Positions 16,216-19,950 of a stretch of 48,837 nucleotides of DNA are shown here, piece by piece (position 1 is the first letter of the stretch; each line of letters begins with the position of its first letter). The DNA is from Nitrososphaerales archaeon (lineage in GTDB: Archaea > Thermoproteota > Nitrososphaeria > Nitrososphaerales > JANXEG01), in assembly GCA_025058425.1 (NCBI GenBank), contig JANXEG010000002.1:1-48837 (forward strand), given 5' to 3'. The position numbers and the translations under genes are program-made. A model generated the notes under the pieces. The model was not told the DNA's origin, did not search any database, and was given only the letters and a program-made list of their open reading frames with translations.

Positions 16216-17271
16216 ATGTGTCCATTAACCTTTGTAGGCTTAGGGTTGCGGGGTGTTGAGAGCCTTACTTTAGAAGGTTTGGATACCATAAAGGTGGCTG
16301 ATGTGGTATATCTGGAGGTCTATACGAATCCGTTGAGCGAATCATCGATCGATAATATTCAGAGATTCTTGAATAGAGAGGTTAAAGTTGTAAAGAGGGA
16401 GTTTGTAGAAGATGGTAGGGCAATAATCGATCAGGCCAAGATCTATAATGTGGTGTTGATCTCGATGGGGGATCCGATGATCGCTACTACACACATGGAT
16501 TTAAGGGTGAGGGCCGAGATGAACGGTGTAAAGACACGTGTTATACACAATTCATCGATCTTGACCGCGCTACCTGGTGAGACAGGTTTACATACTTACA
16601 AATTTGGAAAGGTCGTGACTATGACGAGAAGCGCATCCACACCGATAACTACAGTCTATCAAACGATTTATAACAATCTTTTGATGGGGCTACATACAAT
16701 CGTATTACTCGAATACGATTATTATTCAAACTTCTTCCTTAAACCTCAAGATGCATTAAGAAGCCTTTTGCAGATGGAGGATATCCTTAAACAGAATATA
16801 TTCGATCGAGACACATTCGTTATAGTAGCCTCGAGGATCGGTAATCCAGATCAAAATATCTTGGCTGGAAGGCTCGATGACCTATTAAGAAAGGATTTTG
16901 GAAACCCACCTCATACACTGATAATTCCAGGGGAGTTGCACTTTACAGAGAAGGAGGCCCTAAAGATCTTATTGAAGTTAAAGGATGATGAGATCATCGA
17001 CAATTCTACGAAGGTCCGTCGAATGGCTGTATCTATGGTAAATAGATACGTGGAGAAAGCAAGAACCGCTTTAAAGAAGGCTATGGATAAATGTGCGAAG
17101 AGATCTGATGAGCGTTTTAAACTACTCTTTGAGAATGTAGCGTGCTACCTTTCAGACTCGATCCGTTTCCTCAATGAAGGGAAGTTTGAGTTGGCCATTC
17201 TAAGTGTAGGTTATGCTGAAGGTCTGCTCGATTCATTAAGGTTCACTGGACAGTTAGAGATCGAATGGTAG
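16216..17271 (+). CDS. dphB: Diphthine synthase fused to a DUF357-like C-terminal domain
   Basis: Residues 1-262 are a tetrapyrrole-methylase-fold diphthine synthase: TFVGLGLRGVESLTL at the N-terminus, SMGDPMIATTHMDL near 92 and PGETGLHTYKFGK near 115. It uses SAM to methylate the modified histidine of elongation factor aEF2. Normal DphB ends near 260-270 residues. Here about 85 more residues follow (about 265-351), helical and charged (NRYVEKARTALKKAMDKCAK, then SDSIRFLNEGKFELAILSVGYAEGLLDSL). These resemble DUF357, a small archaeal helical domain. The stop overlaps the next gene's ATG, so the fused protein and the FAD synthetase are translationally coupled. Confidence 0.9.
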   Translation: MCPLTFVGLGLRGVESLTLEGLDTIKVADVVYLEVYTNPLSESSIDNIQRFLNREVKVVKREFVEDGRAIIDQAKIYNVVLISMGDPMIATTHMDLRVRAEMNGVKTRVIHNSSILTALPGETGLHTYKFGKVVTMTRSASTPITTVYQTIYNNLLMGLHTIVLLEYDYYSNFFLKPQDALRSLLQMEDILKQNIFDRDTFVIVASRIGNPDQNILAGRLDDLLRKDFGNPPHTLIIPGELHFTEKEALKILLKLKDDEIIDNSTKVRRMAVSMVNRYVEKARTALKKAMDKCAKRSDERFKLLFENVACYLSDSIRFLNEGKFELAILSVGYAEGLLDSLRFTGQLEIEW

Positions 17272-17966
17272 TAACCATAAATATTAGGGTTGATAAATTC
17301 CATAAAGCTGCCGTGGTGGAGATGGAGATGAAGACCAATGGCCTCACACAATCCCAAAGAAGGATCCTCGGTAGAATCTATTGTAACAGTATTGCTGGAT
17401 ATGTAAATAGAGTTGAGTATTTGGCCGAACAACTCTCTTATGATGTTAACTATTTAGAGGTACTTTGTAAAGATTTGGTGGATAGGGGGTTGATTGTAGA
17501 GGTAAATGGGGAGTATCGACTCACCGATAAAGGTAGATCCTCGATCGTAGTGGTATTCACAGGGGGTGTCTTCGATATAATTCATCCTGGCCATATATAT
17601 ACGTTGGAATCATCGAAGAATCTGGGTGATGTGTTGGTAGTATCGGTAGCAAGGGATAAGACGGTTATAGAGAGTAAGGGTAGAAGCCCGGTAAATCATG
17701 AGAAAGAAAGGGTAAAGCTGGTAAATTCTTTAAAATATGTAGATTTGGCCCTTCTGGGTAGTGAAAAGGATATCTTTGAGATAGTTACTCAGGTCAAACC
17801 GGATATCATCACCGTAGGTTATGACCAGAAGCATGATGAAAGGGTCTTGATCGAAGAGTTGCGTAAAAGAGGTATAATCGTAAAAGTAGTAAGATTGACC
17901 ACACCGATGCCCGATATAAAGAGTTCAAAGATCAAGAAGGATGTGGAAGTTATGAAGAGCTTTTGA
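17265..17966 (+). CDS. ribL: FAD synthetase (RibL-type cytidylyltransferase) with N-terminal winged helix
   Basis: A 233-residue protein. Residues about 25-92 look like a winged helix (TQSQRRILGRIYCNSIAG ... GEYRLTDKGRSSI). Residues 95-233 are a nucleotidyltransferase of the glycerol-3-phosphate cytidylyltransferase type: FTGGVFDIIHPGH with the catalytic HxGH at 107-110, VVSVARDKTVIESKGR near 128 and TVGYDQKHDE near 185. Archaeal RibL adenylates FMN to FAD. The gene begins inside the diphthine synthase stop (ATGGTAG). It is convergent with ribK, which makes FMN, and overlaps it by 17 bases, so both last steps of FAD synthesis lie together. The long N-terminus is unusual; a later start would remove part of the winged helix. 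Confidence 0.82.
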   Translation: MVVTINIRVDKFHKAAVVEMEMKTNGLTQSQRRILGRIYCNSIAGYVNRVEYLAEQLSYDVNYLEVLCKDLVDRGLIVEVNGEYRLTDKGRSSIVVVFTGGVFDIIHPGHIYTLESSKNLGDVLVVSVARDKTVIESKGRSPVNHEKERVKLVNSLKYVDLALLGSEKDIFEIVTQVKPDIITVGYDQKHDERVLIEELRKRGIIVKVVRLTTPMPDIKSSKIKKDVEVMKSF

Positions 17967-18657
17967 ACCAATCGACGCTTGTAGAATAAACCTTGACCCT
18001 GACTAGATCACCATCTTTAAGATGAAGCTCCTTTCGAATTGAAATGGGTGCGATTATTTCGATCACAGAATCATCGTAATGAGTCCTCTCCGAAAGTACT
18101 ACTGCACACTTCAATGAATCGTTGATGAGTGCTGGGAAGCATTTCGCACCACCGTAGGTTCTATGCTTATCCTCAAATCCCTCTATAGCAATACCTTGAT
18201 ATCGACTCAATTCACGCTTTAATTCTCGATCGGCAGCAGAGGTCAATCTTACATTTAATGTGCCGGGATAGGGGTCGAAGCCGAGCTTTTGAATAAATTG
18301 GCGTCGATAACCTTCGAGCGAGATATAGTATGCTCCTTCACGAAGTCCTGAGAATACACATCCTTTAAACTCAAAGACCTTGGGCGTCGCTTCTAAAATA
18401 CTTCTCATCGATGAGTATATAGAAAGAAGCGCTTCGATACCCTTATCGGTGAGCTTCACATATCTTTCCTTACCGCTCTTCATCCTAATAATGTAACCAA
18501 CCTTTTCCAGCTCACAAAGGTACTTCGAAGCTGCCTGTTGAGACCTTTCCAACCTCTTTGCCAATTCGATAGTGCTCAATCGAATCGCCTGATCCTTCGC
18601 ACCTAATAAAAGCAATTCGAGGAGTGTTAAGAAGTGTGTCGGTTTGACCGATTTCAA
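17950..18657 (-). CDS. ribK: CTP-dependent riboflavin kinase with N-terminal HTH
   Basis: A 235-residue protein. Residues 1-85 are a MarR/wHTH-type domain (STIELAKRLERSQQAASKYL, then VGYIIRMKSGKERYVKLTDKG). Residues 100-225 are the archaeal RibK (DUF120) barrel with GLREGAYYISLEGYRRQF and the signature GFDPYPGTLNVRL. RibK phosphorylates riboflavin with CTP to FMN. The HTH-RibK fusion is known in archaea and probably also represses riboflavin genes in response to a ligand. The start TTG overlaps the endonuclease V stop (TTGA), so it is the last gene of a translin-EndoV-RibK unit. Its end overlaps the convergent ribL. Confidence 0.9.
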   Translation of the reverse strand: MKSVKPTHFLTLLELLLLGAKDQAIRLSTIELAKRLERSQQAASKYLCELEKVGYIIRMKSGKERYVKLTDKGIEALLSIYSSMRSILEATPKVFEFKGCVFSGLREGAYYISLEGYRRQFIQKLGFDPYPGTLNVRLTSAADRELKRELSRYQGIAIEGFEDKHRTYGGAKCFPALINDSLKCAVVLSERTHYDDSVIEIIAPISIRKELHLKDGDLVRVKVYSTSVDWFKSSS

Positions 18658-19304
18658 ACCTTTCTCAAACCTTCCTTAGAGATCCTATGCGCTTCCTTAA
18701 GTACTTTAGGGTAATCGACCCCAATATATCGTATAAACTTTAAGATATCTTTTACCGTTACTCTATGGCCAGGGCTTACATAGTATGGTTTAGCCCCCTC
18801 ACTCTTCACAACGTATCCTACCTTCAAACCATCTACAATTATAGGTGCAAGATTTCCACTATACTTACCTACCTTACCTATGAGGAGTGACTTCGCTACA
18901 CCTAATGTGGGCTTATCCATCAATACGCCGATGAAGACCGCGAGTCCAGCCTTTCTTGGATGTGCTAAACCATGACCATCAACGAGTAAAAGGTCTGGAA
19001 GTTTCTTCAATCTATTCAGAGATTCGATCATCAAAGGTGCTTCACGCATAAATAAATAGCCAGGGATGTAAGGAAAGCAAGGTTGGGCGATATACGTTGA
19101 TACTTCTACGACTTCCTTCTTATAGTTATTCCAAACTACTGAAGCTGCACAGGCCATTTCGTTGCTATACGCTACATCCAATCCACAGATATTTTCAACC
19201 TCTTCGATCGATAAAGGTGTAAGCTTCACACATCTGGCGATTACTTCTTGAACTCTGCTGAGGAAGTTAAGTGTAGCTTTATCACATAAACCCTTATGGT
19301 TCAT
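18654..19304 (-). CDS. nfi: Endonuclease V
   Basis: Cleaves DNA or RNA one base 3' of deoxyinosine or inosine. The family's catalytic features are present: LDVAYS (D49 counting from the upstream ATG at 19322), the PYIPGYLFMREAP motif with the wedge tyrosine and E94, LLLVDGHGLAHPR with D115, and GVAKSLLIG near 148. I prefer the ATG at 19304, seven codons inside the first ATG, because AAGGA lies 5-6 bases before it. With that start the protein has 216 residues and the overlap with the translin gene is 11 bases. It ends in the RibK start. The tight coupling to translin suggests an RNA-directed role, but that is inference. Confidence 0.9.
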   Translation of the reverse strand: MNHKGLCDKATLNFLSRVQEVIARCVKLTPLSIEEVENICGLDVAYSNEMACAASVVWNNYKKEVVEVSTYIAQPCFPYIPGYLFMREAPLMIESLNRLKKLPDLLLVDGHGLAHPRKAGLAVFIGVLMDKPTLGVAKSLLIGKVGKYSGNLAPIIVDGLKVGYVVKSEGAKPYYVSPGHRVTVKDILKFIRYIGVDYPKVLKEAHRISKEGLRKV

Positions 19305-19950
19305 AGCGTTCCTTATATTCATCTTCTTTTGAAATCGCTTTTAAGAGTCGGTCGATCGATGTGAGAATTTGAGATCGCCTCACTTCTTCCGTTATCGCCG
19401 AGCGTGTCTCTTCGACGAGTATTCTTGCTACATCCAACTTTTTCCTCACACCCTTTGCTACATGCTCATATATTGCGAAAGGTGATAATAGTGTGTAGAG
19501 TTGCTCCATTATAGTGAATAGCTCGAGTGCTTCATGATTCTTCTCCTCTCTGATCCTGTCATAAATCAACCTCCTTAATTCGCCTATCGCATCGAGTAAG
19601 CCTAAGATGTACGATATGCCATTTACATTGAGAGTTTTATGAGAAGGTATCGTCTTTTTTGATACGATGGAGTATATAGTAATAGCTTCAACGTACTCTC
19701 CCTCCGGTTGGATAAGGTATTGGCTAAAATTACCTTTAGCGACCTTCCTCAATACCTTTAACTTATCCTCCACCAACTTAAGATTATTCTCAGCCTCTCT
19801 CGGTCTATGAGTATGTATATTGACTATAGCTCTTGATGAGAGAGAAATCGGCTCTCCCAAATCTCTAATTAATTTATCTCGCATCTTTACCGTTCGATTT
19901 AATTGGCGTGAAATGACCTTTAACGACTTCTCCACTTCTTTTAGGCTCAT
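19294..19950 (-). CDS. Archaeal translin/TRAX-family RNA-binding protein (putative RNase)
   Basis: A 218-residue all-helical protein of the translin family. The central signature EGEYVEAITIYSIV (E85, E88) followed by YILGLLDAIGELRRLIYD (about 109-126) matches TRAX and archaeal translin, where paired glutamates of the EYVEA segment take part in RNase catalysis. The C-terminal helix KLDVARILVEETRSAITEE fits the dimer/octamer interface. Eukaryotic translin-TRAX (C3PO) cleaves small RNAs and pre-tRNA fragments; archaeal homologs form octameric shells. The gene heads an operon with endonuclease V and RibK, and its 3' end overlaps the EndoV 5' end. Confidence 0.82.
   Translation of the reverse strand: MSLKEVEKSLKVISRQLNRTVKMRDKLIRDLGEPISLSSRAIVNIHTHRPREAENNLKLVEDKLKVLRKVAKGNFSQYLIQPEGEYVEAITIYSIVSKKTIPSHKTLNVNGISYILGLLDAIGELRRLIYDRIREEKNHEALELFTIMEQLYTLLSPFAIYEHVAKGVRKKLDVARILVEETRSAITEEVRRSQILTSIDRLLKAISKEDEYKERYEP

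Follow-up and report, generated by a model that had tools for sequence, protein, structure and literature searches.

A predicted TRAX-like gene and an endonuclease V gene in a putative SepRS-less form of an archaeal gene cluster

SepRS is the enzyme that charges tRNA-Cys. The archaeal C3PO AfC3PO reportedly cleaves duplex RNA, and C3PO is reported to act in tRNA processing; eukaryotic translin is not known to carry the catalytic Glu, Glu and Asp of the TRAX type. Archaeal tRNA contains m1I57 and is devoid of A34/I34; the known tRNA target of endonuclease V (EndoV) is therefore missing. Neither archaeal TRAX nor archaeal EndoV has a settled role. According to a passage in a review, Pfu EndoV, an archaeal enzyme, cleaves single-stranded RNA at inosine and double-stranded DNA at deoxyinosine (PMC4693234). 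Excerpts of a 2022 survey describe SepRS as accompanied by TRAX and EndoV, occasionally with Taw1 and riboflavin kinase (Front Genet, PMC8762117), and a legend in mBio 2017 lists TRAX together with FAD synthase and riboflavin kinase in the SepRS cluster (PMC5424206). As far as these excerpts go, both sources describe SepRS-bearing loci only, and the TRAX-EndoV association is partly in print already, as a SepRS neighbourhood (PMC8762117).

Here we analysed a 48,837-nucleotide stretch of a Nitrososphaerales genome, referred to as the window. As in the published cluster, TRAX lies upstream of EndoV on the same strand, the riboflavin kinase gene RibK comes next, and RibL and Dph5 are convergent. 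In contrast to that cluster, SepRS is absent from between TRAX and EndoV, and the two genes overlap.

Gene arrangement in the window

Three minus-strand ORFs, encoding RibK, EndoV and the TRAX-like protein, overlap head to tail (Table 1). The first-pass annotation had described this run, with the 3' end of translin overlapping the EndoV gene and a TTGA shared by EndoV and RibK, and the ORF coordinates bear out each of these features at the positions claimed. From the overlaps and the common strand, we infer that the three genes form an operon and would be co-transcribed. A promoter and terminator scan gave no signal above shuffled sequences, using sigma-70 patterns, which do not cover archaea.

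Table 1 Features of the locus and its convergent neighbours
Feature	Position	Strand	Details
Diphthine synthase Dph5 with DUF357 tail	16216..17271	+	TIGR00522, 228 bits, over cut-off
wHTH + cytidylyltransferase-like protein, convergent	17265..17966	+	Pfam CTP_transf_like, 69.1 bits; best NCBIfam match rfaE_dom_II
Winged-helix + CTP-dependent riboflavin kinase (RibK)	17950..18657	-	235 aa, TTG start; Pfam CTP-dep_RFKase, 1.2e-44, 151.6 bits
EndoV stop/RibK start overlap	18654..18657	-	4 bp, TTGA
Endonuclease V	18654..19322	-	222 aa; Pfam Endonuclease_5, 1.7e-48, 165 bits
TRAX/EndoV overlap	19294..19322	-	29 bp with first ATG of EndoV; 11 bp if start is 19304
TRAX-like translin-superfamily protein (archaeal C3PO type, predicted)	19294..19950	-	218 aa; Pfam Translin, 2.1e-7, 31.5 bits

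The true start of EndoV looks more likely to be the ATG at codon 7 (19304) than the first ATG, because residues 1-10 of the structural model have a pLDDT below 50 and because a relative with 75% identity aligns from near codon 7. RibK has a winged-helix N-terminus, which gives it the domain layout of the winged-helix riboflavin kinases of NCBIfam NF010762, and matched that family at 3e-66 (223 bits, below the curated cut-off of 279). The convergent wHTH-cytidylyltransferase-like gene, which we take to be that of the FAD synthetase RibL, has counterparts of the same type in the loci of other genomes, where Dph5, which follows it in the conserved block, repeatedly lies beside it. Upstream of TRAX, the window carries a divergent aminotransferase gene in place of Taw1 and the proteasome gene.

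The TRAX-like and EndoV proteins

Judged by sequence and predicted fold, the protein first labelled translin is an archaeal TRAX-like protein with AfC3PO as its nearest relative; the superfamily assignment held and TRAX-like is the more exact name. AfTRAX (3zc1) matched it at 4.1e-14, its AlphaFold model had a pLDDT of 93.2, and a Foldseek search with this model returned AfC3PO (3zc1) as the best match (TMt 0.88). At 28% identity to AfC3PO, it has the fold and the catalytic E, E and D of archaeal C3PO (AfC3PO 3zc0/3zc1; NeC3PO 5jr9). Residues E85 and E88, already singled out in the first reading of the DNA, were both confirmed at those positions, and by alignment D120 occupies the third catalytic position of AfTRAX, which completes the TRAX-type triad. 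In a residue census, E85/E88 were kept in 124/124 sequences and E124 was likewise invariant.

The window EndoV was matched by TmaEndoV (2w35) at 2.5e-29, and its model (pLDDT 91.5) retrieved the E. coli and Tma enzymes as best Foldseek matches. Its active site is intact, with D49, E94, D115, H121 and K144 corresponding to Tma D43, E89, D110, H116 and K139. Fold and active-site residues are common to the family (TmaEndoV, E. coli Nfi, the mouse EndoV-RNA 6ozj series); the animal enzymes are longer, and the window EndoV, unlike these relatives, adjoins TRAX.

The EndoV model is closest to E. coli and Tma EndoV, which are bacterial and act on DNA, and this would also fit a DNA repair unit. In such a unit, deoxyinosine would be removed from DNA by EndoV, assisted by a TRAX/translin that binds the single strands. 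The excerpted activity of Pfu EndoV on dI in dsDNA (PMC4693234) and the entry for an archaeal C3PO crystallised with ssDNA (5jre) point the same way. However, no recognised DNA-repair gene was present among the recurrent neighbours examined, and SepRS, Taw1 and Dph5 point to translation. We consider a repair unit improbable.

Distribution of the pair and its conserved block

The TRAX-EndoV pairing is ancient and spread widely across archaea, with examples in numerous families from two or more phyla. In the window's order, 33 genomes contain both genes; in 21 of them, from 9/12 families, EndoV immediately follows TRAX. The direct pair also occurs in 14/73 Asgard archaea, all 14 of which were inspected at the locus, and Sulfolobus acidocaldarius has matches to both families. 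In the phylum sample, 91 genomes with both places listed included 29 with a direct pair, 16 with one gene between, 4 with the genes adjacent on opposite strands and 39 with the genes far apart or on different contigs; these placement counts draw on 150 out of the 175 genomes with TRAX and, for EndoV, on 150 listed places against 169 genomes with the gene, and they miss family f22, a direct pair by map (L120). Within a Halobacteriota-type phylum, the direct pair was found in 0/40 genomes with both genes, 9/40 had a same-strand gap of 1.69-1.78 kb, and SepRS lay inside that gap in 5/5 loci inspected. The same gene order on the same strand turns up in one family and phylum after another, which is more than chance would give. 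It is also not a peculiarity of this genome, a possibility for which the first-pass annotation had proposed a survey of translin-nfi adjacency, because the pair is conserved over families and phyla. The loci inspected, two sets of 40 with and without the pairing, were chosen by hand, and counts over them are not frequencies; gene calls in one locus set were rough longest-ORF calls.

The pair belongs to a larger conserved block of proteasome beta, Taw1, TRAX, SepRS, EndoV and RibK, followed by RibL and Dph5 on the opposite strand. Among the matches listed for the phylum sample, SepRS exceeded its cut-off in 16/16 genomes where a single gene separates TRAX from EndoV and in 0/29 genomes with the direct pair. 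In the window's own genome (95% complete), the best SepRS score was a PheRS-type match of 57.5 bits, below the cut-off of 380.65. TRAX stood immediately upstream of SepRS in 43 of 80 named loci, EndoV immediately downstream in 32, and both in 28. The 16/16 and 0/29 counts indicate that the window is almost certainly a SepRS-less form of this ancient archaeal cluster. Five TRAX-EndoV gaps from loci lacking SepRS were searched for remnants of that gene, and none was found (best E 1.9). On the TRAX tree, SepRS was gained or lost 11 times, or 8 times without 14 long rows, with at least 3 changes forced in each case; this tree and the EndoV residue-change tree below come from quick searches and have long branches.

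Such repeated gain and loss would also be expected of a neighbourhood without a common substrate, that is, an old housekeeping operon with common expression timing (translation, proteasome, flavin) in which TRAX and EndoV came to abut after SepRS dropped out. All tested block members, including proteasome beta, RibK, RibL and Dph5, are conserved together. Across 220 genomes, TRAX and EndoV do not co-occur beyond chance (both in 131, TRAX only in 44, EndoV without TRAX in 38, neither in 7; odds ratio 0.55, p 0.23). Without family f9, a group of many small closed genomes in the window's order, presumably Nitrosopumilaceae, where all 29 TRAX-bearing genomes lacked EndoV among the matches listed, the odds ratio was 0.92 (p 1.0). 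The divergence correlation was 0.75 for TRAX-EndoV vs 0.81 for TRAX-RibK, again with no TRAX-EndoV excess, and both co-occurrence and mirror distance were discarded as support for coupling. Against a mere neighbourhood, TRAX and EndoV remain paired where SepRS, Taw1 and RibK are gone, for example in family f2, which has RibK elsewhere, and in Bathyarchaeia an HD-domain protein occupies RibK's place beside the pair. We regard this explanation as credible but somewhat doubtful. That TRAX and EndoV are paired cannot be put down to SepRS, the focus of the published survey.

The first-pass annotation had read the adjacency as a coupled decay system for inosine-bearing molecules. The conserved pair, the catalytic residues kept in the window's TRAX and EndoV, and the excerpted cleavage of inosine ssRNA by Pfu EndoV (PMC4693234) speak for this proposal; the two null comparisons, the frequent absence of Asp110 (Tma numbering) from cluster EndoVs and the SepRS neighbourhood already in print speak against it. 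Because the conserved unit extends from proteasome beta to Dph5, adjacency alone cannot single out inosine decay. Coupled decay of inosine RNA by TRAX and EndoV, as proposed from the sequence, is a hypothesis with partial support.

The reading we favour, at a probability of roughly 45%, is that of a gene block for tRNA/RNA metabolism in which TRAX and EndoV form a functioning pair. SepRS and Taw1 belong to families acting on tRNA, and the TRAX-EndoV part would serve in RNA turnover, most likely of tRNA. EndoV would nick structured RNA at inosine, produced either by deamination or by the m1I57 pathway of archaeal tRNA; a TRAX octamer, acting as a duplex-RNA nuclease, would then trim or destroy the fragments; RibK would be an old flavin gene carried along. 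The coupled RNA role of the two proteins is itself a tentative suggestion. Besides the null comparisons and the loss of Asp110, it has against it the TRAX genes without EndoV in family f9, the EndoV genes without TRAX in 38/220 genomes, the 39/91 genomes with the two genes apart, the 0/40 direct pairs in the Halobacteriota-type phylum and the missing A34/I34 target in archaeal tRNA. The retention of the pair over families and phyla within a block of tRNA genes indicates where to look, namely among inosine-bearing tRNAs or small structured RNAs.

Natural loss of an EndoV catalytic aspartate

The position of Tma D110 is Asn or Glu in 15/34 TRAX-SepRS-EndoV copies, in 4/43 TRAX-EndoV copies and in 8/60 unlinked EndoVs, the last being hand-picked across families with at least one from a SepRS-bearing genome (G076). 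Position K139 is Lys in 113/114 rows with Asp110 vs 12/36 others, and the EndoV tree requires 16 changes from D to N/E, at least 7 of them forced. An alignment error was ruled out by reading the aligned motifs of all 94 EndoVs by eye; duplicate loci L132, L133, L142 and L145 were included in this reading and excluded from the EndoV residue counts above.

This pattern raises the possibility that EndoV mainly binds inosine RNA and passes it to TRAX, its own cutting being dispensable in many lineages. The linked loss of Asp110 and K139, the never-lost E85/E88 of TRAX and the forced changes would agree with such a hand-over, as would loci L231 and L234 (Asn110), whose gene order is like that of L232, L233 and L235 (Asp110). 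However, the window EndoV is intact. The same change in unlinked copies means that Asp110 loss is not specific to the cluster, and the idea that Asn110 marks linked EndoVs exclusively was dropped. Furthermore, Asn110 precedes Gly in 28/34 Asn rows and may be deamidated to Asp in hot cells. We judge the hand-over quite unlikely. A broader RNA surveillance pair, in which EndoV would chiefly read inosine and TRAX would be the nuclease, the pair would predate or outlive the SepRS operon, and Asn110 readers would keep their place behind TRAX with Asp110 dispensable in many lineages, also seems unlikely. Recurrent Asp loss in EndoV alongside kept catalytic residues in TRAX makes a division of labour testable on a few purified proteins.

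EndoV matches were also present on 21 plasmid records, all at less than 60% identity and bacterial among the matches listed.

Three overlapping genes and their products

The genes for translin, endonuclease V (EndoV) and CTP-dependent riboflavin kinase (RibK) overlap consecutively, head to tail, on the minus strand, and the EndoV/RibK overlap is TTGA, as the first-pass annotation had read it. The translin/EndoV overlap measures 29 bp with the first ATG of EndoV and 11 bp with the ATG at 19304. The latter is more likely the start, because residues 1-10 of the predicted EndoV structure have a pLDDT below 50 and the alignment of the closest relative begins near that methionine. Convergent to RibK lie a Dph5 gene and a winged-helix cytidylyltransferase gene, which we take to be RibL.

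Overlapping genes of the window and their domains
Gene	Position	Strand	Domain
translin (TRAX-like)	19294-19950	-	Pfam Translin
EndoV	18654-19322	-	Pfam Endonuclease_5
RibK	17950-18657	-	Pfam CTP-dep_RFKase

Translin gave a single match in the window's genome. The annotation had correctly named E85 and E88, and alignment to AfTRAX identified D120 as the third catalytic residue. The predicted structure (pLDDT 93.2) matched AfC3PO best (3zc1_C, TMt 0.88), followed by one chain from the human C3PO complex. As a passage of a PLoS Genet 2022 paper (PMC9246224) credits archaea with just one Translin/Trax paralogue, considered closer to Trax, the predicted structure leads us to name the protein TRAX-like. 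NCBIfam (PRK14562 models) labels archaeal TRAX/translin "haloacid dehalogenase superfamily protein", with six matches at 19294-19950, all below the cut-off; this label is apparently a misnomer and would conceal archaeal TRAX in annotation. The EndoV model (pLDDT 91.5) was closest to E. coli and Thermotoga EndoV, with RNA-bound mouse EndoV ranking lower. All five active-site residues examined were present, and the protein is of the Asp110/Lys139 type (TmaEndoV numbering).

Distribution of the pairing and of SepRS

For Euryarchaeota, TACK and Asgard, a 2022 survey (PMC8762117) gives TRAX and endonuclease V as the most common companions of the tRNA-Cys enzyme SepRS; it gives TYW1/Taw1, riboflavin kinase or DUF169 as occasional ones and suggests that components were lost gradually. 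An excerpt of a 2017 paper (PMC5424206) places TRAX, FAD synthase and riboflavin kinase next to SepRS. A search of largely open-access full texts, judged by titles, abstract openings and passages, returned no further paper on archaeal TRAX-EndoV pairing. The window locus is a SepRS-less variant of the published cluster.

The pairing is real and conserved. Within the window's order (61 genomes; translin in 46, EndoV in 36, RibK in 54), the adjacency survey called for by the first-pass annotation placed EndoV directly downstream of translin on the same strand in 21 of the 33 genomes with both, spanning 9 of 12 families; in four others EndoV followed on the same strand at a distance of 1-8 kb, and in eight it lay apart (families f7 and f8). 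The phylum sample of 220 genomes had translin in 175 and EndoV in 169. Among the 91 genomes with both in the best 150 listed places for each protein, 29 pairs were direct, 16 had one gene between, 4 adjoined on opposite strands, 3 lay within 10 kb, 21 were far apart and 18 were on different contigs. Asgard (99 genomes) had translin in 94 and EndoV in 75, with a direct pair in 14 of the 73 with both places listed, all 14 confirmed in fetched loci. In 119 genomes of a third phylum, the one to which the fen/SPRUCE euryarchaeal MAGs belong and presumably Halobacteriota-type, 43 had translin and 40 of these EndoV; direct pairs were found in none of the 40, and nine had a same-strand gap of 1.69-1.78 kb, with SepRS inside in all five fetched. 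In one genome of this phylum (G358:C1:2011564-2012129), the EndoV match behind TRAX is split over two frames, perhaps by a frameshift or assembly error. Elsewhere, the EndoV strand is flipped while still adjoining TRAX (loci L104, L105 and L130; f23, f53) or SepRS (L236).

The domains of the intervening gene identify it as SepRS, O-phosphoseryl-tRNA synthetase. SepRS exceeded the cut-off in 25 of the 220 phylum-sample genomes; every one of the 16 with an intervening gene belongs to these 25, and no direct-pair genome out of 29 does. The window's genome had no SepRS over the cut-off, the sole match being PheRS-type (57.5 bits vs 380.65). A SepRS profile scan of GTDB genomes confirmed 113 loci. 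Among the best 80, TRAX immediately preceded SepRS in 43, EndoV immediately followed it in 32, and 28 had both; RibK came after EndoV in 19, Taw1 stood just before TRAX in 20, and the Altiarchaeota loci had neither TRAX nor EndoV. In Methanomethylicia the block is complete, running proteasome beta > Taw1 > TRAX > SepRS > EndoV > RibK, with RibL and Dph5 on the opposite strand, and Lokiarchaeota carry TRAX > SepRS > RibL > RibK, without EndoV.

A 94-row TRAX tree required 11 changes in the presence of SepRS (8 after removal of 14 long rows), at least 3 of them forced by well-supported branches in either case. Njordarchaeum L150 has SepRS and its sister L226 (99% support) has none between TRAX and EndoV; the block thus survives a change in SepRS. 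Several Bathyarchaeia-type clusters have a ~230-aa HD-domain protein in RibK's position behind EndoV (L092, L093, L095, L098, L101, L146, L155, L161, L163), in several cases with a calcineurin-like phosphoesterase next on the opposite strand. Five f10 genomes (G010, G024, G043, G051, G058) each have two riboflavin-kinase domain genes ~30 bp apart on opposite strands.

Possible function of the block

SepRS and Taw1 both act on tRNA. Titles in reference lists report that AfC3PO cleaves duplex RNA and that C3PO is a tRNA-processing ribonuclease; statements in PMC4693234 and PMC8072771 indicate, respectively, that Pfu EndoV reportedly cuts inosine-containing ssRNA and dI-containing dsDNA, and that archaeal tRNA has no A34, hence no I34, but does have methyl-inosine at 57. 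Given these roles, the most economical guess is that structured RNA, tRNA or another kind, is turned over: EndoV would make an inosine-specific cut and TRAX would act as the follow-up nuclease.

Weighing against this guess, TRAX and EndoV did not co-occur in excess across the 220 genomes (both 131, TRAX only 44, EndoV only 38, neither 7; odds ratio 0.55, p 0.23, and 0.92, p 1.0, when family f9 is left out). Nor did their divergence correlate in excess over 52 loci (TRAX-EndoV 0.75 vs TRAX-RibK 0.81 and EndoV-RibK 0.73), and the block also holds genes unlinked to inosine. The idea of the first-pass annotation that translin and EndoV form an archaeal decay or quality system for inosine-bearing RNA (or DNA) is reasonable as a proposal, which genome statistics neither prove nor favour.

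Catalytic residues of TRAX and EndoV

TRAX E85, E88 and E124 were kept in all 124 proteins, and D120 in 121, with Glu in the other three. In EndoV, E89 and H116 were kept in all 150 proteins and D43 in 149; D110 was replaced by Asn or Glu in 36. These comprised 15/34 in TRAX-SepRS-EndoV clusters, 4/43 in TRAX-EndoV pairs, 4/6 near but unpaired, 5/6 on other pieces, 0/1 in the single remaining class and 8/60 among unlinked controls. Asn110 occurs in L104, L105, L109, L120, L121, L128, L130, L134, L135, L137, L139, L143, L150, L153, L226, L231, L234 and others, and Glu in L152 and L156. On an EndoV tree built with columns 110 and 139 both removed, the D110 state changed 16 times, at least 7 of them forced. 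Together with the class counts, this argues that D110 loss, as read from the alignment, is recurrent and common in SepRS-type clusters and also arises outside them. Position 139 was Lys in 113 of 114 Asp110 EndoVs vs 12 of the 36 others, and its loss may be a second sign of relaxed EndoV catalysis.

The D110N exchange presumably blocks EndoV cutting. A D110N mutant is named in the title of the Tma EndoV-DNA crystal structure 6ozf. Gly follows Asn110 in 28 of 34 Asn rows. Because an Asn110-Gly pair may be deamidated to Asp at high growth temperatures, we treat activity loss in Asn110 EndoVs as a hypothesis.
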